A DNA stretch of 64,000 nt from Devosia subaequoris (GTDB taxonomy: Bacteria > Pseudomonadota > Alphaproteobacteria > Rhizobiales > Devosiaceae). The notes under the pieces were generated by a model. That model had not been told where the DNA came from and ran no database searches. It saw only the letters and a program-made list of their open reading frames with translations. The position numbers and the translations under genes are program-made. Position 1 is the stretch's first letter; each line of letters begins with the position of its first letter. Positions 45,632 to 63,721 of this stretch are shown piece by piece. Where the stretch lies: assembly GCF_014197055.1 (NCBI RefSeq), contig NZ_JACIEW010000002.1, forward strand, positions 310,001 to 374,000, read 5' to 3'.

Positions 45632-45707
45632 CCGCCCCGAAACCATTCCCGTTCCCTCGGAAGAATGGCTCGGGGCGGATGACCCCGGGCGTCCCTTATC
45701 GCCCGGG
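45632..45707 (-). promoter_or_regulatory. Intercistronic hairpins after the substrate-binding protein gene
   Basis: Two stems lie in the 117-base gap between the binding-protein and ATPase genes: CCCGGGCG with its complement (45684-45707, 8-base loop) and a longer imperfect stem with arms 45632-45648 and 45663-45678. Such hairpins typically stabilise the upstream binding-protein mRNA and lower expression of the ATPase. No T-run follows, so full termination is unlikely. Confidence 0.55.
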
Positions 45708-45720
45708 AATGCAGCCGCTA

Positions 45721-46752
45721 TCAGGGCAGCATGCGCTCCTCTGCCGGAGGCAAATACTGCGCATCGAAGACATCGGCGGCAGTCACATTGCCCTCCAGGC
45801 CCATCGAGATCTTGAGCGTTTCGATGGACGCGTTCAGCCGCTCCTCATCGATACCGCCAAAGCCGTTCTCGACCACGTACGGGGTCTTGATGTTCATCTC
45901 ATTGGCCATTTCCAGGCGCTCGGTCTCGGTGTTGAGGTCGAGAATTTCGTTGCGCGCCAATACGGCGGCAGCCCCGGCCTCCGGATCGGCCACGGCATCG
46001 GCGAAACCCTTGGCCAGCGCGCGGAGGAATCCTTCGACCGCTTCCGGATTTTCTTCAGCAAAGCCCTCATTGACCATGATGGCATTGCCGTAAAGGTTCA
46101 GACCGTGATCCGCGAAGAGCAGCGGAACGATGTCGTCTTCCGGAACGCCATTGGCCTTGAGGTTAAGGATCACCGAAAAGGCAAACCCAAACACGCCATC
46201 CACATCGCCGGAGGCCAGCATCGGCTCGCGCACCGGGAAGCCGATGGATTCAAGGGTGATGCCGCTATCATCAATCCCGGCCACTTCCTTGAAGGCAGGC
46301 CATTGAGCAAAGGCGCCATCCGGTGGCGGCGCGCCCAGCGTCTTGCCCTCAAGGGACTTCGGGTCTTCGGTGATACCGAGCGACTTGCGACCGACAACGG
46401 AAAACACCGGCTTGTCATAGACCATCATCACGGCTTTGACCGGCTGGGACGGGTCTTCGTCCAGGAACTTGATCAGCGAATTGATGTCGCCAAAGCCAAG
46501 CTGATAGGCGCCGGTGGCGACACGTGGAATGGCCTCGACCGAGCCATTGCCGACATCAATGGTCACGTTAAGCCCTTCATCGGCGAAATAGCCATTGTCC
46601 TGGGCCAGGAGGAAGCCGGCGGCAGGCCCTTCAAATCGCCAGTCGAGGGTGAGCTTGATGTCGGTCTGTGCAAGAGCAGGCAACGCCAGACCGGAAACGG
46701 ACAGACCCGTTGCCAAAGCCAGAGCTGCGGTAAAGTGGCGGCGAGAAAGCAT
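45721..46752 (-). CDS. ABC transporter substrate-binding protein (SsuA/THI5-like, NMT1)
   Basis: 343 residues. The N-terminus MLSRRHFTAALALATG carries a SRRxF motif, which suggests Tat export, followed by a hydrophobic stretch and an Ala-x-Ala site (LPALAQT). The mature protein shows DWRFEGPAAGFLLAQDNGYFADE (split here: FEGPAAGFLLAQDNGYF) and GKTLGAPPPDGAF, typical of the NMT1/THI5-like family that binds sulfonates, pyrimidine thiamine precursors or related small molecules. It heads the transporter operon. The ligand cannot be decided by sequence. Confidence 0.9.
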   Translation of the reverse strand: MLSRRHFTAALALATGLSVSGLALPALAQTDIKLTLDWRFEGPAAGFLLAQDNGYFADEGLNVTIDVGNGSVEAIPRVATGAYQLGFGDINSLIKFLDEDPSQPVKAVMMVYDKPVFSVVGRKSLGITEDPKSLEGKTLGAPPPDGAFAQWPAFKEVAGIDDSGITLESIGFPVREPMLASGDVDGVFGFAFSVILNLKANGVPEDDIVPLLFADHGLNLYGNAIMVNEGFAEENPEAVEGFLRALAKGFADAVADPEAGAAAVLARNEILDLNTETERLEMANEMNIKTPYVVENGFGGIDEERLNASIETLKISMGLEGNVTAADVFDAQYLPPAEERMLP

Positions 46753-46893
46753 GGTTTTGACGTCCCCAGTTTTTGTTATGGGAGAAATCAAGCGCAGCCG
46801 CTGTCGGCGCGCAAGCACTTTCTGACTATTTTGACATCAGACAGCATTGCTGCCCAATTTCTCGGCAGCCTGCTATCTCTTTGTCATCCACGC

Positions 46894-47470: not shown

Positions 47471-48226
47471 TTAGTAAACGTAGAGTACCAGGTTTCGTCC
47501 ACTTTGACGCGCAGCGAACACGCGCTCAGTCCCATAGGGCATCCGGCTCAGGGTAGCGGCAACCAGCGGATCACCGGTAATCGCCGAGCGCAATGAATTG
47601 TTCAGCCCTGTCTGTCGCAGCGCCGCAGCCAAATGCGAACGTAGTTCAGGGCACACCTTAACGCGTCGCACATTTACATTGGTCGCCCGGCTCCAGGAGG
47701 CGTCGACCCGTGTGGACTGGATCAACCGTTGCAGTTCGGCTGGCGAGATGCCCTGACATCCCTGGAAATCGGATGAGCCGGTGCCTGCAAGTTGGCCACC
47801 ACCGTTTCCACCCCCGCCGCTTCCGCCGCCGCCGGTGGTGCCGCCGCCGCCACTATCGTTTCCCGGTGTCGAGCCGCCGCCTATGCCGACATCGACATCG
47901 GCGAGATTGTCTCCTCCGACTTGGGCGCGGACCCTTACACCGTCGTTTAAAAGCCCGACATTGGCGTCGACCACAGACGAGCCTCCGGCACCAACGGTCG
48001 CATTGGCCACACTGCCATTGCCGACCTTTGCATCAAGAACCTGGTTGCCCCCCCCCCCGACCCCGACATTGACAAGACCGGAGTCGCCGGCATCGCCCTT
48101 TCCGAGGGTGACGAGTGCCTTGTCGTCCTTGCAACCGACAATACCGAGCAAGGAGCCCGCCTGCGCTGGAAGTGAAACGCTTGCAAGCAACGCAACAGAA
48201 AGAAAAGCAACCTTAGAAAAACTCAT
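47471..48226 (-). CDS. Glycine-rich secreted protein with an internal G11 tract
   Basis: 251 residues with a signal peptide (SFSKVAFLSVALLASVSLP, cleavage after AQA). The mature part has Gly/Val/Asp-rich imperfect repeats (VNVGVGGGGNQVLDAKVGNG, ADVDVGIGGGSTPG, SSVVDANVG) followed by a long Gly-Ser run and an ordered C-terminus with two cysteines (FQGCQG, VKVCPELR). The repeats are like beta-solenoid or adhesin-type folds, but I do not recognise the family. A GGAGG site precedes the ATG at 48226. An 11-base homopolymer within the repeats (48048-48058) could cause frameshifts. Confidence 0.8.
   Translation of the reverse strand: MSFSKVAFLSVALLASVSLPAQAGSLLGIVGCKDDKALVTLGKGDAGDSGLVNVGVGGGGNQVLDAKVGNGSVANATVGAGGSSVVDANVGLLNDGVRVRAQVGGDNLADVDVGIGGGSTPGNDSGGGGTTGGGGSGGGGNGGGQLAGTGSSDFQGCQGISPAELQRLIQSTRVDASWSRATNVNVRRVKVCPELRSHLAAALRQTGLNNSLRSAITGDPLVAATLSRMPYGTERVFAARQSGRNLVLYVY
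48048..48058 (-). repeat. Homopolymer tract: 11 G on the coding strand
   Basis: A run of 11 identical bases inside an open reading frame of a secreted glycine-rich protein; it encodes part of the GGGGN stretch. Such tracts are prone to slipped-strand changes. It could also be a sequencing artefact in length. Confidence 0.85.
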
Positions 48227-48641
48227 ACTGCACCTCCTTTGTCGACGACATGTCGCCAAAGAATAATGCACCAAAAAAATTTGGAGTCTTACCAACAGTT
48301 TGGCAAGAGTTTCTGCCTTTTTGATTACTACAATTGAATCGTATAGAAATTTCTATATATTTGTAACCAAGTTAACAATCTACGGATAAATCAGTATTTA
48401 TAAGTCCCAATATAAAAACAGGGCGCGAAACCGAAGTTTCGCGCCCCTCCGGGGCGACCTGCAAAGGAGCGTCAACCTCTGCGGCCGACCGCCGATCGGA
48501 TGGTGGAGGCTCTGTTGGCGTCCCACCATAGATTGGTCCGGCTCAATGCGTCCGGTTCGCTTGCTCAACGACCGGACACGCAGGCGGTTCCCGCCATTGG
48601 GGCTCACATTGATTTTGTGATCGGAGAAGGGCGTCGCGTGC
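48227..48641. other. 415-base intergenic region, AT-rich half and terminator
   Basis: The first 190 bases (48227-48412) are strikingly AT-rich compared with the rest of the window and form the upstream region of the glycine-rich protein gene. The rest has the terminator at 48414-48446 and normal composition without a credible gene. Confidence 0.6.
48414..48446 (-). terminator. Rho-independent terminator of the kinase/regulator operon
   Basis: GGGCGCGAAAC, loop of four bases and its complement (11-bp perfect stem, 48421-48446) with TTTTT following on the minus strand at 48414-48418; it lies about 200 bases past the stop of the LuxR regulator gene. Confidence 0.8.
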
Positions 48642-49571
48642 CTAAAGCTCGAATGGAGCCTGCAGTGCCTGGATTGCCTTGATCGCCGCCGAAGCTCGGT
48701 TCTCTACACCCAGCTTGGCATAGACCTGCTCAAGATGCTTGTTCACCGTGCGCGGGCTGAGCCCCAGAATTTCCCCAATGTCCTTGTTGGACTTGCCGCG
48801 GCCAATCCAGAGCAGCACTTCGCTTTCGCGTGCCGTCAGGCCGAATTGTTGGCGCAGGATTTCTTCTTGCCCCTCAACCTGAGCCCGGGCGATGCGGAAT
48901 AGATATTCGTCCCCACCCACCACGCCCAGAAAGGCAAAATGCAGACCCGTGCCGTCGCCCGTTTTGAGGTCGAACCCTCCCCCCGGCGTCGGCCGCTCGC
49001 CTTCGGCCAGGCGCCAGTCGACAAAGCACCGCGACATGATGAGTTGGACCTCCTGCCCCAGACCGGAGCGATCCAGCAGTCGATTGGCCTGCGGCGTCGA
49101 CCAAAGCACCAGCCCGTCGGCAGCAAAGGCCACCAGGTGCCGTCCGGCGGCATCCAGTGCGATGCGGGCACTTTGCGCCCGCCGCGCATTTGCCAGATGC
49201 ACCCGTATCCTGGCACGCAGTTCATCCACGTTGATGGGCTTTGAAAGATAGTCCACCCCGCCGCTTTCCAGTGCATGCACAACGTGCTCGGTCTCGGTCA
49301 GTCCGGTCATGAAGATGATCGGAACGTGAACCAGCGGCGGCAAGGCTTTCATCTGCCGGCAGGTTTCAAAACCATCCAGGCCCGGCATGACGGCATCCAT
49401 CAGCACGACGTCGGGCGTGACTCGTTCAACGATCTTGAGTGCGGCCTCGCCGCTACGGGCGACCAGCACGGTCACGCCTGCTTCTTCGAGCGCGGTGGTC
49501 AGAAACCCCAGCGACTCCGGCGAGTCGTCGACCAGAAGAACGATATCCTGCTCCCGCTCAATCCGGCTCAT
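48642..49571 (-). CDS. Response regulator with LuxR-type DNA-binding domain
   Basis: 309 residues. Receiver domain (1-125; LLVDDSPESLG, phospho-acceptor Asp59 in VVLMDAVMPGLDG, K in YLSKPINVDEL), a middle PAS-like region (about 140-235), and a C-terminal LuxR helix-turn-helix (LTARESEVLLWIGRGKSNKD, LGLSPRTVNKHLEQVYAKLG). The start ATG lies inside the end of the transporter-kinase gene (14-base overlap), so it is the likely cognate partner. It would act on promoters of nitrogen genes next to it (urtA), by inference from position. Its PAS-like insert is unusual for this class. Confidence 0.93.
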   Translation of the reverse strand: MSRIEREQDIVLLVDDSPESLGFLTTALEEAGVTVLVARSGEAALKIVERVTPDVVLMDAVMPGLDGFETCRQMKALPPLVHVPIIFMTGLTETEHVVHALESGGVDYLSKPINVDELRARIRVHLANARRAQSARIALDAAGRHLVAFAADGLVLWSTPQANRLLDRSGLGQEVQLIMSRCFVDWRLAEGERPTPGGGFDLKTGDGTGLHFAFLGVVGGDEYLFRIARAQVEGQEEILRQQFGLTARESEVLLWIGRGKSNKDIGEILGLSPRTVNKHLEQVYAKLGVENRASAAIKAIQALQAPFEL

Positions 49572-52500
49572 GGCCCACCCGCTCCAGCGTTGCGGCGAAG
49601 CCGTCGAAATCAAAGTTCTGCATATGCTGCCTTAGCGCCTCGACAAGCGGCAGATTGGCCGGGTCGGCCGCCAGCTCGCCCAACTTGTCATCAATGCCCC
49701 TGACATGACCGATTTGACCGAGCGCGGCCAGGTCACGCAAGTGCTCTGCGCCTGGAGAACGCATTTGCCTTTCCTGAGGCACGGCAGTACCAGGCGCTTC
49801 ATGGATCCACTCCAGCCCCAGATGCGTACCCAGCCGGTCGACAAGCTGGTTAAGGTCGAAGGGCTTGGCCAGCGAATCACTGTGTCCGGAATCAGAACTG
49901 GTAGGATTGGCGCCATCCCCGATATTGGCCGAGAGCATGATCATCGGCGCCACGACCCCGCGGGCGCGCATGGTCTGCACCAGATCCCAGCCGCTCATGC
50001 CAGGCATCCGGATATCGACAAAGTACAGGTCCGGTTTTGCCGTCTCTATGGCGGCAAGACAGGATTGGCCATCGACCGCGGCGAGCACAGTAAAGCCGAG
50101 CGGCGCAAGCATCTCATGCATCAACTGGCGGTGGTCGGCATTGTCATCGACAACCATGATGGTGCGTCGACTGCCCTGATACCCGATAATCTGCTGTGCC
50201 GGGGCCACACGTTTGGTCGGGCGCTCAACCTTGGACAACATCAGCCGCACCTGGAAGCGTGTCCCTTCGCCCACTGCGCTCGTGACAGTGATTTCCCCAC
50301 CCAGTGTCTCCGTCAGTAGCTTGGTGATGGTGAGCCCCAATCCCAGCCCCGGCGTAAAGCGGTTGCGCTCTGCCTCCCCCCGCACAAAGGGCTCGAAGAT
50401 ATGATCCAGATCGGCTGCCGCTATGCCGCTGCCACTATCTTCAACAGTGAAAGTGGCAACCTGCATGCGATAGCCGACGCTGAAACTGACATGGCCTGAA
50501 CTGGTGAACTTGATGGCATTGGACAGCAGATTGACGAGAACCTGCCGCAACCGTTTCTCGTCCGTACGCACATAATCGGGCAGCGCCCGGGCACGCTCAT
50601 GGCGGAACTCGAGTCCCTTGGCCCGCGCCTGCAGGCGGAACATGTCGACGATCTGATCCAGGAAGTCCTGGATATTGACCTCGCTGGTATAGACCTGCAG
50701 CCGCCCCGCCTCGATCTTGGAAATGTCGAGTAGCCCATCGATTAGTCCGGACAGATGCTCGGCGCTGCGACGAATAACCTGTGCCGAGCCGCGCCGGTTC
50801 TCCGGCAGTTGGCCATCGCGCTCGAGAATTTGCGCATAGCCCATCACCGCATTGAGCGGCGTGCGCAATTCGTGGCTTAGGCCCACAACATAGCGGCTCT
50901 TGGCCTGATTGGCAGCCTCGGCCTTTTCCTTGGCGCGCTGCAATTCGGCGTCGGTCTTCGAGTGCGCATCGATTTCTTTCAGGAGCAGCGTGTTCTGGCG
51001 CGAGCTTTCCTCCTCTGCCACCAGACGACTGTCATGCGCCAGTACCAGGAACCAGGTCATCACCCCCGCAGCCGCTGCAAAGACGAAGAACACGACCAGC
51101 AGCGTGCCACCGACGACGTCGGCCGTATTGGGCGCAGAGCGACCCGCAAAATAATAGATCAGCCCCAGAACGCCGCCCAGGATCGCCGTGGCAATGACCA
51201 TGGAAATGCCATAGCGCCCCAGCCGGGTCTGCAGTTTGTCGATGGCCCATTGCGGCAGGATGCTCGCGGCCACCGCATGGGTCTGCGCGCGGAAATGCGC
51301 GTGCGGCTTGCACATGTCGTGACAGCGCGCGTCGAGCGAGCAGCACAGCGAGCAGATCGGCGCAGCATAGGCTGGGCACCAGGCCATATCCTCAGGCTCG
51401 AACGGATGCTCGCAGATCGAGCAGGTGAGCGTCTGCCTCGACTGCCACTGCTTGCGCGGTTTGCGTGCGAGATAATATTTGCCCTTGGTGGCCCAGGCGA
51501 TGGCGGGCGAGGCAATCAGGCACACGATAAGGGCGATATAGGGCGAGAGCGCTGAGGCCATCTCGCCAAAGGCCCCGAAATGGGCGGTGAGCGCGATGAC
51601 CACCGACAGGGACATCGAGCCGACGCCGACCGGGTTGATGTCATAAAGATGGGCACGCTTGAACTCGATCCCCGGCGGCGCCAGGCCCAGCGGCTTGTTG
51701 ATGAACAGATCTGCCGAGATCGAGCAAAGCCAGGCCATCGCGATGATGGAGAATATGCCCAGCGTCTCTTCGAGCAGCCGATAGATGCCCAACTCCATCA
51801 GCAAAAGCGCAATGGCCACATTGAACAGCAGCCAGACCACGCGCCCCGGATGGCTGTGGGTCAGGCGCGAAAAGAAATTCGACCAGGCCAGCGAGCCGGC
51901 ATAGGCGTTCATTACGTTGATCTTGAGCTGGCTGACGACAACGAACACCGCCATCAGCATCAGCGCCACGAACTCATTGGGGATCATGTAGCCAAACGCC
52001 ACGGCATACATATGACCCGGTTCGGAGGCGTGTTCGGGCGACACCCCTGCGGAAAGCGCGAGGAAAGCGAGAAATGAGCCGGCGATCAGCTTGGGCGCGC
52101 CGACCACCACCCAGCCGGCACCTGCGAGAAAGATCCCCAGCTTGTGCCGCCATTTTGGCGCCCCTCCGGCGGGCAGGAAGCGCAGGAAGTCGACCTGCTC
52201 GCCGATCTGGGTCATCAGCGCCAGAATGACCGCCGAGGCCGCGCCGAATTTGGCGATGTCGAACGGCGCGATACCGCCCGCAATGCCTTCCGGCTGCCCC
52301 AACCCTGCAAAGGCGCGCCAGAGATCGAACTTTTCCCAATCCATGAAGGCGATGAAGAAGAAGGGCAGGACGTTAAGCAAGATCCAGATCGGCTGGGTCA
52401 GCATCTGGAACGACGAGATCATGCGGATGCCATGCGTCACCAGCGGAATCACCACCAGCGCCGAAATGATATGGCCGATCCAGAGCGGAATGCCGAACGC

Positions 52501-52926
52501 CAGCTCCAGCGCGCTCGACATGATCGAAGCTTCGATGGCGAATAGAATGAAGGTGAAGCTGGCATAGATCAGCGAGGTGATCGTCGAGCCAATATAGCCA
52601 AAGCTGGCTCCGCGCGTCAGCAGATCAACATCGACGCCATGCCGGGTCGCATAACGCGAGATCGGCACGCCAACCAGAAGGATGGCGACTGACGCGACGA
52701 GAATCGCGATCAGCGCATTGGTTGTGCCGTACGAAAGCGTAATGGCCCCGCCGATTGCCTCCAATGCGAGGAAGGAAATGGCCCCGATCGCGGTTTGGGA
52801 AATCCGGTCATTGGAGAAGCGCCGGGCCGACTTGGCGGTAAAGCGCAGGGCATAGTCTTCCAGGGTCTGGTTGGCCACCCAGCGATTGTACTCGCGCCTG
52901 ACCGGGATGATCCGTTGCCGTGCCAT
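49558..52926 (-). CDS. NCS1-like permease domain fused to hybrid sensor histidine kinase
   Basis: 1122 residues. Order: NCS1/CodB-like nucleobase-cation symporter domain (about 1-495, some 12 hydrophobic segments; LEDYALRFTAKSARRFSNDR, RYATRHGVDVDLLTRGASFGY), a cysteine cluster (Cys502, 505, 517, 525, 528, 529, 535, 539), two more hydrophobic segments (574-595, 606-629), coiled coil, HisKA with phospho-His685 in GLSHELRTPLNAV, HATPase_c (NLLSNAIKFTSSG, GLGLGLTITK), a receiver with Asp927/Asp928 and phospho-acceptor Asp971 in FVDIRMPGMSG, and an acidic helical tail. The transporter part probably serves as the sensor. It is divergent from urtA and overlaps the LuxR regulator gene. Ligand (urea, allantoin, cytosine-like compounds) unknown. 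Confidence 0.92.
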   Translation of the reverse strand: MARQRIIPVRREYNRWVANQTLEDYALRFTAKSARRFSNDRISQTAIGAISFLALEAIGGAITLSYGTTNALIAILVASVAILLVGVPISRYATRHGVDVDLLTRGASFGYIGSTITSLIYASFTFILFAIEASIMSSALELAFGIPLWIGHIISALVVIPLVTHGIRMISSFQMLTQPIWILLNVLPFFFIAFMDWEKFDLWRAFAGLGQPEGIAGGIAPFDIAKFGAASAVILALMTQIGEQVDFLRFLPAGGAPKWRHKLGIFLAGAGWVVVGAPKLIAGSFLAFLALSAGVSPEHASEPGHMYAVAFGYMIPNEFVALMLMAVFVVVSQLKINVMNAYAGSLAWSNFFSRLTHSHPGRVVWLLFNVAIALLLMELGIYRLLEETLGIFSIIAMAWLCSISADLFINKPLGLAPPGIEFKRAHLYDINPVGVGSMSLSVVIALTAHFGAFGEMASALSPYIALIVCLIASPAIAWATKGKYYLARKPRKQWQSRQTLTCSICEHPFEPEDMAWCPAYAAPICSLCCSLDARCHDMCKPHAHFRAQTHAVAASILPQWAIDKLQTRLGRYGISMVIATAILGGVLGLIYYFAGRSAPNTADVVGGTLLVVFFVFAAAAGVMTWFLVLAHDSRLVAEEESSRQNTLLLKEIDAHSKTDAELQRAKEKAEAANQAKSRYVVGLSHELRTPLNAVMGYAQILERDGQLPENRRGSAQVIRRSAEHLSGLIDGLLDISKIEAGRLQVYTSEVNIQDFLDQIVDMFRLQARAKGLEFRHERARALPDYVRTDEKRLRQVLVNLLSNAIKFTSSGHVSFSVGYRMQVATFTVEDSGSGIAAADLDHIFEPFVRGEAERNRFTPGLGLGLTITKLLTETLGGEITVTSAVGEGTRFQVRLMLSKVERPTKRVAPAQQIIGYQGSRRTIMVVDDNADHRQLMHEMLAPLGFTVLAAVDGQSCLAAIETAKPDLYFVDIRMPGMSGWDLVQTMRARGVVAPMIMLSANIGDGANPTSSDSGHSDSLAKPFDLNQLVDRLGTHLGLEWIHEAPGTAVPQERQMRSPGAEHLRDLAALGQIGHVRGIDDKLGELAADPANLPLVEALRQHMQNFDFDGFAATLERVGHEPD

Positions 52927-53161
52927 GCAAGCCTAAACCTTAACCAGTTCGCCGCGCTGCCCAAAAAATCGCCAGCTCTTCAATAGCACGGAATCCGGAA
53001 TAATCACGCGGTTTTTCAGGGCGTTCCGCCAATATCCGGAATCAACGCGACAGGCAGTTACGTCAATCGACGTATAGGGCGAACCTTAAGTTCTGTCCCA
53101 GTGTGCCTCCAGGACGCCTCCCGGTGTCTTGAGGGACTCAACAGGTCTAGAGGGACAACAC
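52927..53161. promoter_or_regulatory. Divergent control region, sensor kinase / urtA
   Basis: 235 bases. It contains an inverted repeat TACGTC-AATC-GACGTA at 53059-53074, 88 bases before urtA, in the size class used by LuxR-type regulators, and two direct repeats TCCGGAAT (52996-53003 and 53037-53044) 41 bases apart, about four helical turns. These are candidate sites for the adjacent LuxR-type regulator or a nitrogen regulator. No obvious sigma-54 element (GG-N10-GC with TGGCAC/TTGC) is seen. Confidence 0.5.
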
Positions 53162-54457
53162 ATGAAGAATTTCAGCGCGAAAAGCGCTCTGCTCGCCGCC
53201 GCTCTTGCTGGCAGCGTCTCGCTGTCTGCGGTGCCGGTCATGGCGCAGGACGACACCATCAAGGTCGGCATTCTGCACTCGCTTTCGGGCACCATGGCGA
53301 TCTCGGAAACCACGCTCAAGGATACCATGCTGTTCCTGATCGAACAGCAGAATGCCAAGGGCGGTGTGATGGGCAAGATGCTCGAACCCGTCGTGGTCGA
53401 CATTGCCTCGGACTGGCCGCTGGCCGCCGAGCTGGCCCGTCAGCTCATCGAAGTCGATGAAGTTGATGCGGTGTTTGGTTGCTGGACTTCCGTCTGCCGC
53501 AAGTCGGTGCTGCCGGTCTTTGAAGAACTCAATTCGCTGCTGTTCTACCCGGTGCAGTACGAGGGTGAAGAATCCCAGCGCAACGTGTTCTACACCGGTG
53601 CCTCCCCCAACCAGCAGGCCATTCCCGCCGTCGACTATCTGATGAACGAAGAGGGCGTCGAGCGCTGGGTTCTGGCCGGCACTGACTATGTCTACCCCCA
53701 GACCACCAACAAGATCCTCGAGCAATACCTGCTCGACCAGGGTGTGGCCGCCGAAGACATCATGATCAACTACACGCCTTTCGGTCATTCCGATTGGCAG
53801 ACCATCGTCTCCGACATCGTCGCCTTCGGTTCGGAAGGCAAGAAGACCGCCGTGGTCTCCACCATTAATGGTGACGCCAACGTGCCGTTCTACCGCGAAC
53901 TGGGCAATCAGGGCGTTGCTGCCGAGGACATCCCCGTGGTGGCCTTCTCGGTCGGTGAAGAAGAACTTTCCGGCTTCGACACCACCCCGCTGGTGGGTCA
54001 CCTGGCCGCCTGGAACTACTTCATGTCCGTGGATACCCCGGAAAACGAGCAGTTCATCGCTGACTGGCAGGAATTCATCGGCTCGGAAGACCGCGTCACC
54101 AATGACCCGATGGAAGCCCACCTGATCGGCTTCAACCTCTGGGTCAAGGCCGTGGAAGCGGCCGGCACCACCGATGCTGACGCCGTCATCGATGCCATTG
54201 TCGGTCTCGAAACCCCGAACCTGACCGGCGGCATGGCCACCATGCTCCCCAACCACCACATCACCAAGCCCGTGCTGATCGGTGAAATCCAGGATGACGG
54301 CCAGTTCTTCGTGGTCTGGGAAACCGAAGACCTCGTACCGGGCGATGCTTGGTCCGACTTCCTGCCAGAAAGCGCCATGCTCGAGGCCGATTGGACCGCC
54401 CCAATCAACTGCGGCAACTACAACACCGAAACCGAGAGCTGCGGCTCGGCAATGTAA
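53162..54457 (+). CDS. urtA: Urea ABC transporter substrate-binding protein UrtA
   Basis: 431 residues with a signal peptide (NFSAKSALLAAALAGSVSL, cleaved after MAQ). The periplasmic-binding protein of the Leu/Ile/Val type shows the UrtA hallmarks KVGILHSLSGTMAISE, VFGCWTSVCRKSVLPVFE, NSLLFYPVQYEGEES and ASPNQQAIPAVDYL. It captures urea (and short-chain amides) in the periplasm. First gene of the urtABCDE operon; a 10-bp hairpin lies just after it. Confidence 0.97.
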   Translation: MKNFSAKSALLAAALAGSVSLSAVPVMAQDDTIKVGILHSLSGTMAISETTLKDTMLFLIEQQNAKGGVMGKMLEPVVVDIASDWPLAAELARQLIEVDEVDAVFGCWTSVCRKSVLPVFEELNSLLFYPVQYEGEESQRNVFYTGASPNQQAIPAVDYLMNEEGVERWVLAGTDYVYPQTTNKILEQYLLDQGVAAEDIMINYTPFGHSDWQTIVSDIVAFGSEGKKTAVVSTINGDANVPFYRELGNQGVAAEDIPVVAFSVGEEELSGFDTTPLVGHLAAWNYFMSVDTPENEQFIADWQEFIGSEDRVTNDPMEAHLIGFNLWVKAVEAAGTTDADAVIDAIVGLETPNLTGGMATMLPNHHITKPVLIGEIQDDGQFFVVWETEDLVPGDAWSDFLPESAMLEADWTAPINCGNYNTETESCGSAM

Positions 54458-54536: not shown

Positions 54537-56156
54537 ATGCTGAACCTCCGCGCTCTCCGCCTGGTGCTCCTGGCCCTGCCGTTCCTGCTGCTGTCTGCAA
54601 ACTCGCTCCGCGCACAAGATGCAGCAACAGACATTCCCGCCGCGATCCAGGCTATGGGCGAGGCGAACCTGCGCGAACTCAAACAGATTGTCGCCGCTCT
54701 CACCGCGACCGGTAGCGACACGGTTGTTCCGGTTCTGACCGCCCTGGGCGATGGCAATCTATATCTCGAAGAAACCTCGGGCGTCGTCCTGATCGAACGC
54801 GGCCCGGCCTATCTCGACCCACTTACGGGCGAGACCGTCGATCTGCGGGCCGATGCAGATCTCTCCAAGGTCCGCGTCAATAATGGCTTGCGGCGCGATA
54901 TCGCAGCCGCCCTGGCCGGCATGACGCTGATGAGTGACAATCCGGCCCGCCGCCTCACCGCCGCGCAGGGTTTTCTCGCCAATCCCGATCCGGCCAATGT
55001 TGCCTTGCTCGACGAAGCCATCGCTGCCGAAGCCGACGCCAAAGTGCTTGCCGCCATGCAGGCCGCCCGTGCCGTCACTATTTTGGGCGATGAGGAGCAA
55101 AGCATAGAGGATCGTCGGGCCGCCGTGCCGTTAGTCGCCTCGGGCGCCGGCCGCAATGCGCTGACCGTCCTCAATGCGGCGCTCAATGACGCGCCCGGAG
55201 AACTGGCGCCGGCGATCCAGTCGGCCATTGCTGGCCTCGAACAGGAACGCGCCATCTGGGGTGCGCTGCAAAATGTCTGGTTTGGCCTCTCGCTCGGCTC
55301 GGTCCTGCTGCTGGCCGCCATTGGTCTGGCCATAACATTCGGGGTCATGGGCGTCATCAACATGGCACATGGCGAAATGGTCATGTTGGGTGCCTACACC
55401 ACCTTTATCGTTCAGTTGGTCATTCGCCAGAACTTTCCCGGCCTGCTCGACTATTCCCTGCTCATCGCCCTGCCCTGCGCCTTCCTGGTCACCGGTGCGA
55501 TCGGGGTCGGCATCGAGCGCGGCATCATCCGCTGGCTCTATGGCCGTCCGCTTGAAACCCTGCTCGCCACCTGGGGCCTGTCGCTGATCCTGCAGCAGAC
55601 CGTGCGCTCGATTTTTGGTCCGACCAACCAGATGGTCATCGCCCCAACATGGATGTCCGGCTCGACCGAGTTCTTCGGGCTCTCGATCACCTATGGACGG
55701 TTCTGGATCGTCATCTTCGCGCTGATCGTATTCTTCATGTTGCTGCTGATCCTCAACCGCACGCCACTCGGCCTGCAGATGCGCGCAGTCACACAAAACC
55801 GCCGTATGGCCTCTGCCATGGGCATTCGCACGCCCTTTGTCGATGCCATGACCTTTGGTCTCGGCTCCGGCATTGCCGGCCTCGCCGGCGTAGCGCTGAC
55901 TCAGATCGACAACATCTCCCCCAATCTGGGCCAAAACTACATCATCGACAGCTTCATGGTCGTGGTCTTTGGCGGAGTCGGTAATCTCTGGGGCACGCTG
56001 GTCGGCGCGCTGACCCTGGGCATCGCCAACAAGTTCCTCGAACCCTATGCAGGGGCCGTGCTGGGCAAGATCCTGATCCTGGTACTGATCATCCTGTTCA
56101 TCCAGCGACGTCCTCGGGGTCTGTTCGCTCTCAAAGGAAGGGCAGTGGAACAATGA
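54537..56156 (+). CDS. urtB: Urea ABC transporter permease UrtB
   Basis: 539 residues. It starts with a signal-anchor (LVLLALPFLLLSANSLRA) and a 230-residue soluble region (periplasmic by topology) typical of proteobacterial UrtB, then a LivH-like permease with about eight membrane segments (IGLAITFGVMGVINMAHGEM, LATWGLSLILQQTVRSIFG, VVFGGVGNLWGT). Combined with UrtC it forms the channel. The start at 54537 is the ATG before the hydrophobic leader. Confidence 0.95.
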   Translation: MLNLRALRLVLLALPFLLLSANSLRAQDAATDIPAAIQAMGEANLRELKQIVAALTATGSDTVVPVLTALGDGNLYLEETSGVVLIERGPAYLDPLTGETVDLRADADLSKVRVNNGLRRDIAAALAGMTLMSDNPARRLTAAQGFLANPDPANVALLDEAIAAEADAKVLAAMQAARAVTILGDEEQSIEDRRAAVPLVASGAGRNALTVLNAALNDAPGELAPAIQSAIAGLEQERAIWGALQNVWFGLSLGSVLLLAAIGLAITFGVMGVINMAHGEMVMLGAYTTFIVQLVIRQNFPGLLDYSLLIALPCAFLVTGAIGVGIERGIIRWLYGRPLETLLATWGLSLILQQTVRSIFGPTNQMVIAPTWMSGSTEFFGLSITYGRFWIVIFALIVFFMLLLILNRTPLGLQMRAVTQNRRMASAMGIRTPFVDAMTFGLGSGIAGLAGVALTQIDNISPNLGQNYIIDSFMVVVFGGVGNLWGTLVGALTLGIANKFLEPYAGAVLGKILILVLIILFIQRRPRGLFALKGRAVEQ

Positions 56157-56193: not shown

Positions 56194-57405
56194 ATGCTGA
56201 CCCAAGCCCTGTTCCGTGCGCTCGACAAGAAGGCCATCTGGGTCATCGCCATCTTCATGGCCGTCGCGGTGCTCGTGCCCATGGCCAACCTTCTGATCCC
56301 GCCGGGTCAGTTCGGCCATGTTCCGACCTACCTTGTCTCGCTCATGGGCAAATATCTCGCCTATGCCATTCTCGCCCTCGCCCTCGACCTTGTCTGGGGT
56401 TATTGCGGCATTCTCTCGCTTGGCCACGGCGCCTTCTTCGCCCTGGGCGGCTACGCCATGGGCATGTACCTCATGCGCCAGATCGGCAGCCGGGGCGTCT
56501 ATGGCAATCCGATTCTGCCCGACTTCATGGTGTTCCTGAACTATTCCGAACTGCCATGGTTCTGGCAGGGCATGGACAATTTCTGGTTCGCCATGCTCAT
56601 GGTGGTCCTCGTGCCGGGGCTGCTGGCTTTCGTATTTGGCTTTTTCGCCTTCCGCAGCCGCGTCACCGGCGTCTATCTCTCCATCATTACGCAGGCGGTG
56701 ACTTTTGCCCTTCTGCTGGCCTTTTTCCGCAACGATATGGGCTTTGGCGGCAATAACGGGCTGACTGACTTCAAGGATATTCTGGGTGTTTCGGTGCAGG
56801 CGCAAAGCACACGCGCCACGCTTTTCGCAGCAACCGCAATTACCTTGGCGCTCTCGGTGCTGGTCTGCTCGATGATCGTCAATTCCAAGCTGGGCAAGGT
56901 GATGATCGCGGTGCGCGACGCAGAAAGCCGCACCCGCTTCCTCGGTTATCGAGTGGAATATGTGAAGCTCTTCGCCTTCACCGTCTCGGCCATCATGGCC
57001 GGCATCGCCGGGGCGCTTTACGTCCCGCAGGTGGGGATTATCAATCCATCCGAGTTTGACCCGGCCAATTCCATCGAGGTGGTGATCTGGACGGCCGTGG
57101 GCGGGCGCGGCACGTTGATCGGCCCGATCATCGGCGCCATCGTGGTCAATCTGGGCAAGTCCTGGTTCACCACCACCCTGCCCGAGCTTTGGCTGTTTGC
57201 CTTGGGCGCGCTGTTCGTCTTCACCACGCTATTCCTGCCCAAGGGCATTGTGGGCCTGTGGAACCAGGCGCAGGGCAGAATGCGCCGCAGAACCGAGCCC
57301 GTAGCGCGGCCCGAGCCCCCCACGCCAGCTCAGTCTACAGATATCGAGCGCGGTGAAGACCCCGCCAGCTTCGGCCACGGCCCCCAACCCAAACCGGCGG
57401 AGTAA
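56194..57405 (+). CDS. urtC: Urea ABC transporter permease UrtC
   Basis: 403 residues, LivM-type permease with about ten hydrophobic segments (YAILALALDLVWGYCGILSLGHGAFF is split in two motifs: LDLVWGYCGILSLGHG and AVGGRGTLIGPIIGA). The last 45 residues are a Pro/Arg-rich cytoplasmic tail (RPEPPTPAQSTDIERGEDP). Follows urtB by 37 bases and urtD by 5. Confidence 0.95.
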   Translation: MLTQALFRALDKKAIWVIAIFMAVAVLVPMANLLIPPGQFGHVPTYLVSLMGKYLAYAILALALDLVWGYCGILSLGHGAFFALGGYAMGMYLMRQIGSRGVYGNPILPDFMVFLNYSELPWFWQGMDNFWFAMLMVVLVPGLLAFVFGFFAFRSRVTGVYLSIITQAVTFALLLAFFRNDMGFGGNNGLTDFKDILGVSVQAQSTRATLFAATAITLALSVLVCSMIVNSKLGKVMIAVRDAESRTRFLGYRVEYVKLFAFTVSAIMAGIAGALYVPQVGIINPSEFDPANSIEVVIWTAVGGRGTLIGPIIGAIVVNLGKSWFTTTLPELWLFALGALFVFTTLFLPKGIVGLWNQAQGRMRRRTEPVARPEPPTPAQSTDIERGEDPASFGHGPQPKPAE

Positions 57406-57410
57406 AGGCC

Positions 57411-58160
57411 ATGAGCGCGCACACCGATACCATGCTCTATCTTGACGGCGTCTCGGTTGCCTTTGACGGCTTCAAGGCGATCAACAACCTTGCCATCATT
57501 GTTCAGCCAGCCGAGATGCTGGCGATCATCGGGCCCAACGGTGCCGGCAAGACCACCATGATGGACATTATCACGGGCAAGACCCGGCCCGACACTGGCC
57601 AGGTGCTGTTCGACGGTCGGACCGACCTGACCAGGTTGGACGAGGCCGCCATCGCCAATCTGGGCATTGGCCGAAAATTCCAGAAGCCGACCGTATTCGA
57701 GAGTCACACCGTCTGGGACAATCTGGAGATGGCGCTGAAAAAGCCGCGCGGCATCTTTTCGACGCTGTTCTACGCCGCCAGTGACAACGATGTGGCGCGG
57801 ATCACCGAAATTCTCGAGACAGTCAGGCTTATCAGCCGGAAGGACGAACTCGCAGCCAATCTCAGCCATGGACAAAAACAGTGGCTCGAAATCGGCATGC
57901 TGTTAGCTCAGGACCCCAAACTTCTGTTGGTCGACGAGCCGGTGGCCGGGATGACCGACAGCGAAACCGAAGAAACCGCCAAGCTGCTGCGCAAGATTTC
58001 ACAGACCCGCTCGGTGGTGGTGGTTGAGCATGACATGAGCTTTGTCCGTGAACTGGGTTCGCGCGTCGTCTGCCTTGCGGAGGGATCGGTGCTCGCCGAA
58101 GGCTCGCTCGACCAGGTCAGCGCCAACCCTGTCGTAATTGAACGCTATCTGGGGAGGTGA
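57411..58160 (+). CDS. urtD: Urea ABC transporter ATPase UrtD
   Basis: 249 residues, LivG-type ATPase. Walker A IGPNGAGKTTMMDI, signature LSHGQKQWLEIGMLLAQ, Walker B LLLVDEPVAGMTDSE and the H-loop EHDMSFVRELG are canonical; SHGQKQWLEIGM is typical for UrtD. Overlaps urtE by 4 bases if the GTG frame is counted. Confidence 0.97.
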   Translation: MSAHTDTMLYLDGVSVAFDGFKAINNLAIIVQPAEMLAIIGPNGAGKTTMMDIITGKTRPDTGQVLFDGRTDLTRLDEAAIANLGIGRKFQKPTVFESHTVWDNLEMALKKPRGIFSTLFYAASDNDVARITEILETVRLISRKDELAANLSHGQKQWLEIGMLLAQDPKLLLVDEPVAGMTDSETEETAKLLRKISQTRSVVVVEHDMSFVRELGSRVVCLAEGSVLAEGSLDQVSANPVVIERYLGR

Positions 58161-58162
58161 GA

Positions 58163-58867
58163 ATGGCAGCTGCACTCTCAATCAATTCCATCGACCTGCA
58201 CTACGGTGCCGCACAGGCGCTCAAGGGCATCTCCCTCACCTGCCAGCCGGGAAAGATCACGGCCGTGCTGGGGCGCAATGGCGTGGGCAAGTCGTCCACC
58301 TTGCGGGCCATCACCGGTATCAATCACCTATCTGCTGGTGACATCACCTTCGGCGAGGAAGTGCTCAAAAGAACCCCGCCCTATAAGCGCGCCCGCATGG
58401 GCATCGGCTATGTGCCGCAGGGCCGCGAAATCTTCCCCCTGCTCACCGTCAAAGAAAATCTTGAGACCGGCTATGCCGGCCTGGCCCGGTCCGAGCGTAA
58501 CGTGCCCGAATACATTTTCGAGCTGTTCCCGGTGCTCAAATCCATGCTTGGCCGCAGGGGCGGCGATCTTTCGGGCGGTCAGCAGCAGCAATTGGCCATC
58601 GGCCGTGCGCTGGTTACCCGGCCCAAGGTTCTGGTGCTGGACGAGCCCACCGAGGGCATCCAGCCTTCGATCATCAAGGATATCGGTCGCGCCCTGCAAT
58701 TTCTACGCGACGAAAAGGGCATGACCATCCTGTTGGTGGAACAGTTTCTCGATTTCTGCCGGGAGATTGCCGACGACATCTATGTGATGGACCGCGGCGA
58801 GATCATGCATACCGGACCGGCGAGCGATCTCGACCTGCCCGACGTGCGCAAACATCTGATGGTATGA
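58163..58867 (+). CDS. urtE: Urea ABC transporter ATPase UrtE
   Basis: 234 residues, LivF-type ATPase. Walker A LGRNGVGKSSTLRAI, signature LSGGQQQQLAIGRALV, Walker B VLVLDEPTEGIQPSI. The ATG at 58163 has GGAGG 6 bases upstream; an earlier GTG at 58157 is less likely. Last gene of the urt operon; a terminator follows. Confidence 0.97.
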   Translation: MAAALSINSIDLHYGAAQALKGISLTCQPGKITAVLGRNGVGKSSTLRAITGINHLSAGDITFGEEVLKRTPPYKRARMGIGYVPQGREIFPLLTVKENLETGYAGLARSERNVPEYIFELFPVLKSMLGRRGGDLSGGQQQQLAIGRALVTRPKVLVLDEPTEGIQPSIIKDIGRALQFLRDEKGMTILLVEQFLDFCREIADDIYVMDRGEIMHTGPASDLDLPDVRKHLMV

Positions 58868-59337: not shown

Positions 59338-60180
59338 ATGAAGTTTGCCGAGGCAGAAATTGTGAACGGCGCCATACTGCAGCGCGCCCGCGGCATCGGC
59401 CGCGTCGCGGCCAAGCAGGTCGGCGACCGCACGCGCCTTGCCACTTTGTTCCAGGAGGGGTGTGGCAAGATCCGCCTGCCCAACACCCATTCTAGCAGTT
59501 TAGAGGCCGTGCTGATTAACACGGCGGGCGGCATAACGGGTGGCGACTATCTGCAATGGGGTGCCGACCTGGGGGCGGGCGGTCACATGGTCCTGACCAC
59601 CCAGGCCTGCGAGCGAAGCTATCGCTCCACCGGCGGTTTCGGGCGCGTCGAGACCAGCTTGAAAGTAGGCGCTGGCGGCCATCTCGACTGGCTACCCCAG
59701 GAAACCATTCTCTTTGCTGCCAGCAAGCTCGACCGCCGGTTGGAAGTCGACCTGGAAGAAGGCGCCACTCTGACCGCAATCGAGGCGGTGCTGCTGGGCC
59801 GGGACGCCATGGGCGAGGATGCCGCCGACGCCCTGCTGCGTGACAATTGGCGTATCCGTCGCAATGGTCAACTCATCCATGCTGAAGCCACCCGGTTGCA
59901 CGCATCCGCTGAGGAGCGGCAGAGCCTTTCGCTGCTGAATGGAAACCGGGCCTTTGCCAGCGTACTGCACGTTGCCGCAACGCCGGACCGCGCCAGCAGC
60001 ATCGGCAAACAGATCCGCGCCCTGCTGCCGGCGGACCAGACAATCGGCCTCAGCGTCAATCAATCACGCCTGGTCATACGCGCCATGGCCCAAACCGGGC
60101 TTGCCCTGCGCCGAATGATCGTACCAGTCTTGCTCGAACTCACCGCCGCGGGCAGCCTGCCCCGCCTCTGGCATCTCTAG
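59338..60180 (+). CDS. ureD: Urease accessory protein UreD
   Basis: 280 residues. UreD is a scaffold for nickel insertion in the UreD-UreF-UreG complex. Motifs typical of the family include LINTAGGITGGDYLQW, HMVLTTQACERSYRS, LDWLPQETILFAASKLDRR and the acidic segment AVLLGRDAMGE. Starts the ure operon; ureA follows after 9 bases. Confidence 0.95.
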   Translation: MKFAEAEIVNGAILQRARGIGRVAAKQVGDRTRLATLFQEGCGKIRLPNTHSSSLEAVLINTAGGITGGDYLQWGADLGAGGHMVLTTQACERSYRSTGGFGRVETSLKVGAGGHLDWLPQETILFAASKLDRRLEVDLEEGATLTAIEAVLLGRDAMGEDAADALLRDNWRIRRNGQLIHAEATRLHASAEERQSLSLLNGNRAFASVLHVAATPDRASSIGKQIRALLPADQTIGLSVNQSRLVIRAMAQTGLALRRMIVPVLLELTAAGSLPRLWHL

Positions 60181-60189
60181 GACCGGAAG

Positions 60190-60492
60190 ATGAATCTCAC
60201 GCCTCGCGAAAAAGACAAACTGCTCATCTCGATGGCCGCCATGGTCGCGCGTCGGCGCCTTGAGCGTGGCGTCAAGCTCAACCACCCCGAAGCTATCGCG
60301 CTGATCACCGACTTCGTAGTGGAAGGGGCGCGGGACGGCCGCGCCGTCTCCGAACTCATGGAGGCCGGCGCCCATGTTATCAGCCGCGATCAAGTCATGG
60401 AGGGCGTTGCCGAAATGATCCACGACGTTCAGGTCGAAGCCACTTTCCCCGACGGCACTAAGCTCGTCACCGTCCATCAGCCGATCCGATAA
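60190..60492 (+). CDS. ureA: Urease gamma subunit
   Basis: 100 residues, the usual length. Opening [22 protein letters not shown] and [25 protein letters not shown] (split motifs) are the family signature, with [20 protein letters not shown]-like end. Small structural subunit of the nickel urease. Confidence 0.98.
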
Positions 60493-60503
60493 CGAGGCCT
60501 CAA

Positions 60504-61082
60504 ATGCTCAAGCGCAGCCTGTTGACCCTGGCAATCTCCATCACCGCAACCTTGCCGGCCTTTGCCCATCTTGACCCAACAGAACATGGTTCGATTGCCG
60601 CCGGCCTCAGCCACCCCCTGTTCGGCCTGGACCATGCTCTGGCCATGGTCGCTGTCGGCCTCTGGGCAGCCATGCAGGGCGGGCGCGCGCTTTGGTTGGT
60701 ACCGGCCGCCTTTGTCGGCACCATGGCGCTGGGATTTATCGCTGCCATTGCCGGCATTCCCTTGCCCTTTGTCGAGCCAGTGATCCTGGCCTCGGTGATT
60801 TTCATCGGCATTGCCGTCGCACTGGCCCTGCCTGTCCCTGCCTCGACAGTTGCCGCCATGGTCGGGTTCTTTGCTTTCTTCCACGGCCATGCCCATGGCG
60901 GTGAACTGGGCGGGGCAGCTGCCTGGGAATTCGCCATTGGCTTCGTCATGGCCACGGCCGGCCTGCATGCAGCGAGCATTGGCGCCGGCCTAGCACTGGC
61001 GCGGTTCAGCGGCAAGGTGCTGACCCGCCTCGCAGGCGCGGCAACATCGTTGGGCGGCCTCTACCTGACAATCGGCGGTTGA
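60504..61082 (+). CDS. HupE/UreJ family membrane protein, probable nickel permease
   Basis: 192 residues with a signal-like start ([19 protein letters not shown]) and six hydrophobic segments. Metal-site motifs [13 protein letters not shown] and [10 protein letters not shown] are characteristic of HupE/UreJ nickel transporters that occur inside urease operons. It sits between ureA and ureB, where it would supply nickel for urease assembly. Nickel as the substrate is inference from family and location. Confidence 0.94.
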
Positions 61083-61092
61083 GGATATGGCC

Positions 61093-61398
61093 ATGATCCC
61101 CGGAGAAATCATCCCCGTCCACGGCGACATCGAGCTCAATGCCGGAGCTGAACAGATCGTGCTGGAAGTCGCCAATGCCGGCGACCGCCCGATCCAGGTC
61201 GGTTCGCACTATCATTTCTTCGAAGCCAATGCCGGTCTGCGCTTTGATCGCGGCCGGGCGCGCGGCATGCGTCTTGATATCGCAGCGGGCACGGCGGTGC
61301 GATTTGAGCCGGGGCAATCACGCGAAGTTCGGCTGGTGCCGATCTCGGGCGACCGCCGCATTTTCGGATTCCGGCAACAGATCATGGGAGATCTCTGA
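61093..61398 (+). CDS. ureB: Urease beta subunit
   Basis: 101 residues. Opening [33 protein letters not shown] and [17 protein letters not shown] (all UreB signatures). The ATG at 61093 is chosen over 61087 because GAGG is then 8 bases away, and UreB proteins normally begin MIPGEI. Structural subunit of urease. Confidence 0.98.
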
Positions 61399-61491
61399 AC
61401 CCTGTGGGCGGCGCGATATTGTCCCGGCGGGCCATGGCATCGCCGGGTGAAAGCTGGTTAAAGGGCACGTCTCGAAAAAGAGGATCGTGCC

Positions 61492-61893
61492 ATGACCATC
61501 GAACCCAGCAAGGAAGCCCAGTTCAAGCAACGCTTCATTTCCGTCGTGGCGGATCTGCGGCAGAACGGCCTCAATGACCCGGAGGCCATGGCGCATATCG
61601 GTGGTCTGGCAGTCGAATTGTCCGATGCGCTGAACCAGAAGAGCTGGGTCGCGGTCAAGCAGAGCATGACCCCTGCGACCTATGACGAGTTGCTCGCGAC
61701 TTTCCAGAAGCGCGGCACCGAGTACCACAAGGATGGCCGCACCAAACTGGCCTACGCCATCCAGCTACTAAGCGTTTCGCTGGTCGCCTTTACCCAGCGC
61801 AGCGATGCCGACATCGCGGCCGGTGAAAACCTGGTGGACCAGTTGATCGACCAGGCCGCCACGCGATACCGCCAAGTCCGTCCCAAACACTGA
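61492..61893 (+). CDS. Unknown conserved-style protein inside the urease operon
   Basis: 133 residues, soluble and helical, with no signal or membrane segment and no cysteine. Stretches such as AHIGGLAVELSDALNQKSWV and YAIQLLSVSLVAFTQRS look like packed helices. It lies between ureB and ureC, where most urease operons have no gene. I do not recognise the family; a role in urease assembly or nitrogen sensing is only suggested by position. Confidence 0.78.
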   Translation: MTIEPSKEAQFKQRFISVVADLRQNGLNDPEAMAHIGGLAVELSDALNQKSWVAVKQSMTPATYDELLATFQKRGTEYHKDGRTKLAYAIQLLSVSLVAFTQRSDADIAAGENLVDQLIDQAATRYRQVRPKH

Positions 61894-62011
61894 TTGGGCT
61901 GGGGCGAGACTGGCTTGAACGACGTGTTCCGGGCCCTTGCCAGTCCGGACACCATAGGCCAAAGTCACGCCCGGGAAGCCTTTGTTCCGGGCCATTCGAA
62001 CGGGACACGAC

Positions 62012-63721
62012 ATGCCAGCACGGATTTCTCGCGCCACTTACGCCGATATGTACGGCCCCACTACGGGTGACCGCGTCCGCCTCGCCGATACCGAACTCTT
62101 CATCGAGGTGGAGAAGGACTTCACCACCTATGGCGAAGAGGTCAAATTTGGTGGCGGCAAGGTCATTCGCGACGGCATGGGCCAGTCTCAACGCACCCGC
62201 ACAGAGGGCGCCGTCGACACGGTTATCACCAACGCGCTGATCGTCGATCATACCGGAATCTACAAGGCTGATATCGGTCTCAAGAATGGGCTGATCGCCG
62301 GCATCGGCAAGGCCGGCAATCCCGATACCCAGCCCAATATCGACATCATCATCGGGCCCTCGACCGAGGCCATTGCCGCCGAAGGCAAGATAGTTACAGC
62401 CGGCGGCATGGACGCTCACATCCACTTCATCTGCCCCCAGCAGATCGAGGAAGCGCTGATGAGCGGGGTGACCACCATGCTCGGCGGCGGTTCCGGTCCC
62501 GCCCAGGGGACCCTGGCCACCACCTGCACCGGCGCCTGGCATATCGAGCGCATGATCGAAAGCTTCGACGCTTTCCCGATGAACCTGGCGCTCGCCGGCA
62601 AGGGCAATGCCGCAGTCGCTGCGCCGCTCGAAGAAATGATCCTTTCCGGCGCCTCATGCCTCAAACTGCATGAAGACTGGGGCACCACCCCGGCGGCCAT
62701 CGACAACTGCCTCTCGGTCGCGGACGACTACGATGTGCAGGTGATGATCCACACCGATACGCTCAATGAAAGCGGCTTCGTCGAAGACACTGTCGGCGCC
62801 TTCAAGAACCGCACCATCCATGCCTTCCACACCGAAGGCGCAGGGGGCGGGCATGCGCCGGACATTCTCAAGGTTGCGGGCCTGCCCAATGTCATCCCCT
62901 CTTCGACCAATCCGACGCGGCCCTACACGGTCAACACCATTGCCGAGCATCTCGACATGCTCATGGTGTGCCACCACCTCGATCAGTCGATCCCCGAGGA
63001 CGTGGCCTTCGCTGAATCGCGCATCCGCAAGGAAACCATCGCCGCCGAGGACATCCTGCACGATATGGGCGCGCTTTCGATCATTGCTTCGGACAGCCAG
63101 GCCATGGGCCGCGTCGGCGAAGTGCTGATCCGCACCTGGCAGACGGCCGACAAGATGAAACGCCAGCGCGGCCGCCTGCCGCAGGAAGCCGGCGACAACG
63201 ATAATCTCCGCGTCAGGCGCTATGTAGCCAAATACACCATCAACCCGGCCATCGCCCATGGCATGAGCCAGCACATCGGCTCGATCGAAGTGGGCAAGCG
63301 GGCGGACCTTGTGCTCTGGAACCCCGCCTTCTTTGGCGTAAAGCCGGAAGTGGTGTTGCTCGGCGGCTCCATTGCGGCCGCCCCGATGGGCGACCCCAAT
63401 GCCTCGATCCCGACGCCCCAGCCCATGCACTACCGCCCCATGTTCGGTGCCTATGGCAAGCTCGTAAGCCGCTCCTCTGTCGTGTTCATTTCCCAGGCCG
63501 CGCATGATGCAGGCCTGCGCAATCGCCTTGGCGTCGATAAGCAATTGCTGCCCGTATCCAACACCCGTGGCGGCATTGGCAAGGCGGCCATGAAGCTCAA
63601 TACAGCGACCCCGAAAATCGACGTGCACCCCGAAACCTACGAGGTCCGCGCCGACGGCGAACTGCTCACCTGCGAGCCCGCAACGGTACTGCCCATGGCG
63701 CAGCGCTATTTCCTGTTCTGA
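62012..63721 (+). CDS. ureC: Urease alpha (catalytic) subunit
   Basis: 569 residues, the normal length of UreC. The two-nickel active site is bridged by carbamylated Lys218 in [20 protein letters not shown] and [18 protein letters not shown] carry metal/flap residues, and Cys320 in MVCHHLDQ is the mobile-flap cysteine. Opens [20 protein letters not shown] as usual for UreC, supporting the ATG at 62012. Hydrolyses urea to ammonia and carbamate. Confidence 0.98.

Follow-up and report, generated by a model that had tools for sequence, protein, structure and literature searches.

Here we report a family of hybrid sensor kinases that carry a permease domain in front of the kinase core and are encoded beside genes for urea and short amides. 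The family was traced from a window of 64,000 nucleotides of Devosia subaequoris DNA (assembly GCF_014197055.1, contig NZ_JACIEW010000002.1, positions 310,001 to 374,000; coordinates given without a locus name are those of the window), in which one such sensor gene (49558..52926, minus strand) adjoins the gene of a LuxR-type response regulator and the urea transporter genes urtABCDE. Judged from sequence, sensor and regulator are likely to form a two-component system in which a permease domain related to the NCS1 transporters serves as receptor for small amides and which regulates urtABCDE through a palindrome. The accessible part of the literature assigns no tested sensor to bacterial urea and short-amide sensing for high-affinity uptake, and the family supplies testable candidates for sensor, regulator and operator.

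Architecture and distribution of the sensor

The sensor gene is a single reading frame with an ATG start and encodes 1122 residues. The NCS1-related permease domain (residues 1-495, 51442..52926), delimited by profile comparison and alignment, comprises about 12 transmembrane-like segments up to residue 482 in a hydropathy scan. It is followed by a domain with eight cysteines (residues 502-539, 51310..51423, from the alignment; CxxC-x11-C-x7-CxxCC-x5-C-x3-C, at positions 502, 505, 517, 525, 528, 529, 535 and 539) and, between this domain and the kinase, by two further hydrophobic segments (residues ~569-633, 51028..51222; Kyte-Doolittle scan). Pfam matches to HisKA (residues 676-741, 50704..50901, phospho-acceptor H685), HATPase_c (residues 788-897, 50236..50565) and a receiver, Response_reg (residues 923-1032, 49831..50160, D971), all on the minus strand like the gene itself, together with the conserved His and Asp identify a hybrid histidine kinase. 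The eight cysteines are kept in 21 of 21 diverse members of the alignment and fixed in 143 sensors labelled by their surroundings, larger sets that were partly picked with a Cys-motif pattern; the domain probably binds metal. H685 is present in all 143 labelled sensors, and D971 falls in a gap in three of them. An earlier reading of the window (the original prediction) had described the fused frame with its three signalling modules, the eight cysteines, His685 and Asp971, all of which were recovered at the same positions. It had also described an acidic tail; a stretch after the receiver does exist, but it ends in an FDFxxYxxxLE-like motif common to the relatives and is thus more than that.

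The likely ATG (49571) of the response regulator gene (48642..49571, minus strand; open reading frame 48642..49613) falls within the end of the kinase gene, which has its stop codon at 49558-49560. Pfam matches to REC and GerE place the regulator among the NarL/FixJ (LuxR-type) proteins, as they do the partner of the Acinetobacter sensor described below. The urtA gene (53162..54457, plus strand; likely ATG 53162, open reading frame 53129..54457) diverges from the sensor gene, and its product scores 534.9 bits against a cut-off of 492.75 bits for the NCBIfam model TIGR03407, which makes it a urea transporter binding protein. The overlap with the regulator gene and the divergence from urt, both part of the original prediction, agree with these coordinates and matches.

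The fused frame is beyond chance and not an oddity of one genome, since a phylum-wide profile search found it in 52 of 398 genomes at E<=1e-30. Within the order, residues 1-655 used as the query gave matches in 33 of 150 genomes, three of which (G031, G055, G121) gave weak hits to stand-alone permeases; both counts include the genome of the window, where the full-length sensor is a single copy and the other matches span the kinase or the receiver only. At least 594 confirmed relatives were found on GTDB contigs, of which 80 were kept. Among plasmid records 530 match, and in 508 the match spans 80% of the query or more; 342 of the 530 are from Klebsiella, one of which (L069) was examined as a sensor by its surroundings. 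The collected sensors are non-redundant, 148 of 149 being distinct at 98.5% identity.

Stand-alone permeases were considered as a common family and set aside, all matches listed at E<=1e-60 in 299 phylum genomes lying in long fused frames. In the sensor tree they group with receiver-less amide sensors (support 82, long branches). Three sensors linked to formamidase and an AmiS/UreI-type channel (L183, L067, L247) have short frames of 873-899 residues and seem to be without a receiver domain. The record CP125156.1 carries a stand-alone permease and not a sensor; this record (5.37 Mb) and NZ_CP077849.1 (3.66 Mb), both filed as plasmids, resemble chromosomes.

Gene neighbourhoods and the candidate operator

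The surroundings of 143 sensor loci were examined in three sets of 29, 80 and 34. In 27, 80 and 33 of these (140 of 143) a regulator gene lies within 5 kb of the sensor gene, and 28, 77 and 33 (138 of 143) have a gene of urt, urease, formamidase or an amide channel no farther than 10.5 kb away. Four of the exceptions (L059, L077, L113, L231) are cut off by contig ends; the fifth (L122) has no recognised partner within 22 kb and retains the palindrome described below. Co-occurrence with urt had been set beforehand as the test of the original prediction, and the part of it that sees a sensor kinase of transporter origin linked to urea uptake is supported by this linkage and by a candidate operator that tracks urtA.

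The partners are of several types. They comprise true urtABCDE operons with or without urease (UrtA identity 69-99% at the order level), a urtA relative (35-39% identity to the UrtA of the window), at many loci with the formamidase gene fmdA and a zinc-ribbon gene, urease directly, formamidase with an AmiS/UreI channel, and a stand-alone permease in Acinetobacter; fmdA is present at 46 of the 143 loci. In each of four genomes (G293, G359, G379, G510) there are two sensors, the first beside a formamidase operon and the second beside urease genes. A tree was built from a thinned set of 79 sensors, 76 of which carry a partner label. Partner type changes seven times on it, whereas shuffling the labels 100 times gave 28.9 changes on average and never fewer than 22. 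Linkage to urea has more than one origin, and sensors linked to amides sit close to the root, the position of which is unsure because of long outgroup branches. In one Rhizobium locus (L084, 7912-10053) an open reading frame with PAP2 and autotransporter-repeat matches lies between sensor and urtA.

In front of urtA, at 53059..53074, lies the candidate operator TACGTCAATCGACGTA, a palindrome of the form TACGTC-N4-GACGTA that occurs in this perfect form only once in the genome. A wider regulon was looked for with the relaxed pattern TACGYN6RCGTA and rejected; it matches six places, and only the one at urtA is perfect. When gapped palindromes were enumerated without prior assumption in 94 sensor-urtA intergenic regions, that of the window included, the core TACG-N8-CGTA was found in 81 and the exact TACGTC-N4-GACGTA in 39, while in 200 mononucleotide shuffles the core appeared on average in 0.39 and never in more than 2 of the 94 regions. 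Clustered by the sequence outside the motif, these regions form 56 dissimilar groups, and in 45 of them at least one member has the motif; in an alignment of nine promoters (several of them from Devosia) the palindrome arms are the only invariant block besides one single column.

The palindrome follows urtA. In 113 of 133 sensor-linked loci the strict form is no more than 700 bp from urtA, and it precedes the start of the UrtA match by a median distance of 113 bp; the 2.74 Mb of these loci contain no more than 129 occurrences in all. Where urtA is ~1-10 kb away from the sensor gene, the palindrome is still at urtA in 35 of 40 cases, even with urtA on the other side of the sensor (L240, L251). 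The core is missing from all 20 urtA promoters picked from 69 sensor-less genomes with a UrtA match, and from all 14 unlinked urtA-like promoters in genomes that have a sensor. These distributions point to the palindrome as a candidate operator of the linked regulator.

Several observations weigh against so simple a picture. A UrtA match is present in 98 of the 150 genomes of the order, and 29 of these have the sensor. The strict motif is absent from 20 of the 133 sensor-linked urtA promoters. Four of the promoters that miss the motif contain the one-mismatch form TGCGTCAAATGACGTA. The stretches of L067, L183, L221, L239, L245, L246, L247, L249, L250 and L252, where there is no urtA start, yielded no palindrome, and neither did L070, L150, L237 and L241 or the urease-only loci; sensors without the palindrome would therefore use another site or mechanism. 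It is also conceivable, though we think it improbable, that the kinase represses the transporter, or that the palindrome belongs to another regulator co-inherited with the sensor cluster. The position of the site fits either sign of control, both the direction and the binding are what we infer, and the linked promoters without the strict form suit this explanation as well; yet the site of an unrelated regulator should not be missing from every one of the 20 sensor-less and 14 unlinked urtA promoters.

The permease domain and its putative ligand

The original prediction had called the permease domain NCS1/CodB-like, which holds at the level of profiles but not at that of the family model. Comparison by hhalign of the sensor profile with an alignment of 27 NCS1 proteins (CodB, AllW and 25 others) gave 98.9% over 391 columns, and a hidden Markov model (HMM) of this alignment recovers 11 of 21 sensors at E<=2.5e-15 but misses that of the window; the sensor HMM recovers one of the 27 NCS1 proteins. 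An ordinary Pfam assignment as cytosine/purine permease was rejected, PF02133 not being among the 20 Pfam families given for any of the 21 members at E<=10, and the whole genome of the window has no PF02133 match at E<=1e-5. The NCBIfam cytosine permease model matches four of the 21 sensors (best E 6e-5), with the window protein not shown to match. Single-sequence comparisons were weak (CodB 2.8%, AllW 0.6%) and no better than the controls (PutP, UraA, LysP, UrtB, UrtC and reversed CodB and AllW, all below 1%), and a profile search of the PDB listed no NCS1 chain (Mhp1, CodB) at E<=10, the sole match listed being a cysteine-rich protein at E 3. Because a profile-level match stands beside weak matches to curated models and single sequences, the domain is best called NCS1-related and not a member of NCS1.

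In the alignment, Gln105, Trp108, Phe204, Ala207, Thr278, Thr279 and Asn280 of CodB correspond to T125, L128, L237, Q240, K335, I336 and N337 of the sensor. According to the accessible text of PMC9379551, Trp108 and Phe204 of CodB sandwich the cytosine and are conserved in the family, and Thr278 and Thr279 bind Na+. In the Trp108 column all 25 NCS1 rows that align have Trp (2 gaps), but the 21 sensors have Leu (12) or Phe (9), and the Phe204 column is aromatic in 22 of 27 NCS1 rows but Leu in 21 of 21 sensors; the pair of base-sandwiching aromatics of NCS1 thus appears to be replaced. In the alignment the sensors also lack the Na2 hydroxyls, the Thr278 and Thr279 columns being Lys and Ile in all 21, and retain Asn280 as Asn337 in all 21. 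The residues T125, L128, L237, Q240, E243, Q244, K335 and N337 lie at or near the mapped substrate and Na2 sites, and all of them except L128 are invariant across the 143 labelled sensors. Loss of the aromatic cage would argue against a flat-ring ligand, and the fixed polar set would fit a small amide. Of the readings that the sequences suggest, a receptor that senses urea or short amides directly fits best, an argument that draws on the presence of both urea and amide partners and not on their share.

On the other side of the balance, this mapping comes from an alignment of ~16% identity with a gap beside the Phe204 column, and Thr278 is a weak criterion, its column being Thr in only 11 of 27 NCS1 rows. 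Position 128 is the best separator within the pocket (Leu in 79 of 84 urea-linked and Phe in 51 of 52 amide-linked sensors); it is nevertheless Phe in six of the seven sensors of the urease-only group and may mark ancestry rather than ligand. A specificity residue at position 128 or 339 was set aside, as the urease-only group breaks the pattern.

The permease domain might instead sense nitrogen or metabolic state (ammonium, pH, or an ion or proton gradient via Lys335), with the amide linkage reflecting a nitrogen-scavenging programme. An invariant Lys at the mapped Na2 position is in keeping with this, as is the Na2 site of the kinase CbrA, which is filled by Lys196, the protonation state of which alters the simulated conformations (accessible text of PMC13022988). 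A general nitrogen sensor, however, need not keep to urea and amide operons, nor sort its paralogues between the amide and urease loci of one genome, and the single perfect operator in the window's genome also speaks against this explanation, which we consider unlikely.

The ligand favoured in the original prediction, a urea precursor (allantoin, a purine or a hydantoin) that the domain would sense or carry and that would pre-induce urea uptake and urease, now appears very improbable. In its favour are the profile-level kinship with NCS1, a family with nucleobases and allantoin among its cargo (as E. coli CodB and AllW are annotated), a distant stand-alone Rhodococcus relative that adjoins hydantoinase genes and, weakly, hydantoinase/oxoprolinase genes downstream of the regulator at L072 (outside the 148 loci searched) and xanthine-dehydrogenase-family genes ~8 kb away at L185. 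Against it, AllB-like and CodA-like genes each occur at 0 of 148 sensor loci (E<=1e-20; no search was aimed at uricase or other purine genes) and the tested hydantoinase at one (L219; E<=1e-20), fmdA is present at 46 of the 143 loci, and the aromatic cage is replaced in the alignment.

For an amide receptor, signalling could proceed as follows. Small amides outside the cell or crossing the membrane, urea in the clade of the window and formamide or other short amides in the sister clades, would bind to the permease domain, and the conformational change would be relayed via the eight-cysteine domain and the two extra transmembrane helices to the HisKA/HATPase core. Phosphate would then pass from H685 to D971 and on to the regulator, directly or by relay, and the phosphorylated regulator would bind TACGTC-N4-GACGTA upstream of urtA and activate urtABCDE; urease may be activated too, by readthrough or indirectly. 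With somewhat less assurance, but still on balance, we favour a broader proposal: that the family represents a class of urea and short-amide receptors with an NCS1-derived fold devoid of nucleobase cage and Na2 site, a fixed Q240/E243/Q244-K335-N337 set, an eight-cysteine coupling domain and a dedicated regulator acting on one palindromic operator, which has repeatedly switched between amide and urea operons and spread on Klebsiella plasmids.

Known systems and other genes of the window

A close parallel in design is provided by the SLC5/STAC kinases (CbrA, CrbS, RpuS), which likewise have a transporter domain before a histidine kinase and nutrient uptake or use as output. The sensor differs from them in its NCS1-related permease domain (no SSS (SLC5) family appeared in the Pfam scans of the sensor, and the PutP comparison gave 0.6%), in the eight-cysteine domain and two transmembrane segments that stand in place of STAC (in CbrA also PAS), and in its linkage to urea and amide genes via a tandem REC-LuxR regulator. 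Residues 1-660 of the window's sensor gave no Pfam hit at E<=0.01, the presence of a STAC model in the library being unchecked. By analogy, the family may function in the manner of the SLC5/STAC transceptors, with both the permease and the coupling domain being different ones. It would extend the transporter-kinase fusions by a further transporter fold, one in which a Lys maps to the ion site that holds a Lys in CbrA. With the NCS1 transporters (CodB, Mhp1, AllW) the sensor shares profile homology over ~390 columns and the Asn of CodB position 280; it differs in lacking a PF02133 match, in the replaced aromatic sandwich and Na2 Thr pair, and in the attached kinase. In receptors of the UhpC/UhpB type a carrier relative acts as receptor for the substrate of the carrier, but these are separate proteins and belong to another transporter family.

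Two stand-alone permeases without a kinase resemble the sensor domain. One, annotated as cytosine permease, follows the chromosomal urease operon of Klebsiella (L181, 7944-9551) and has 40% identity to the sensor domain; the other, from Acinetobacter, is 73% identical to it and is encoded divergently from a sensor gene, the palindrome lying in the space that separates the two genes (L184, 10189-11965). In both permeases the columns of CodB 204, 207, 278 and 280 hold Leu, Gln, Lys and Asn, and the Cys domain is present in a shortened version that ends in ICSLCK. They are perhaps true carriers, and the Klebsiella permease is a candidate urea carrier.

A Klebsiella plasmid (L069, NZ_OM489433.1, 5900-16240) carries a urtABCDE-formamidase cluster with sensor, regulator and one palindrome; heat-shock and resistance genes lie farther out, and annotators name such sensors 'ATP-binding protein', 'response regulator' or ArcB. 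The cluster has the same make-up as the Klebsiella 'UTS' urea transport cluster (UrtABC/AmiF, lineage CG307), with which we identify it by gene content, and it diverges from the sensor-regulator pair with the palindrome between. The accessible text of the UTS paper names the transporter and the formamidase and contains none of the terms 'two-component', 'sensor' and 'LuxR' (PMC13060141). A urtABCDE operon of Ectopseudomonas has been drawn with a hybrid kinase and a LuxR regulator, no function being assigned and 'permease domain' occurring 0 times in the accessible text (PMC13296017). Among the literature matches listed, no title or displayed abstract names this permease-kinase fusion or a urea two-component system, and no description of a urea or short-amide receptor class made of an NCS1-derived permease and a kinase was found.

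The remaining urt genes of the window follow urtA on the plus strand and encode the permeases UrtB (54537..56156, start chosen within the open reading frame) and UrtC (56194..57405) and the ATPases UrtD (57411..58160) and UrtE (58157..58867). A urease gene region (59338..63721, plus strand), a possible downstream output, contains ureD (59338-60180), ureA (60190-60492), hupE/ureJ (60504-61082), ureB (61087-61398) and the ureC open reading frame (61982-63721), with ureA and ureB named by position. Downstream of the regulator gene, an open reading frame of 274 residues (47471-48295) with a signal-peptide-like stretch has no Pfam or NCBIfam match. Also near the sensor, an ATP-binding cassette transporter with an NMT1/THI5-like binding protein is encoded at 44003-46818 on the minus strand.

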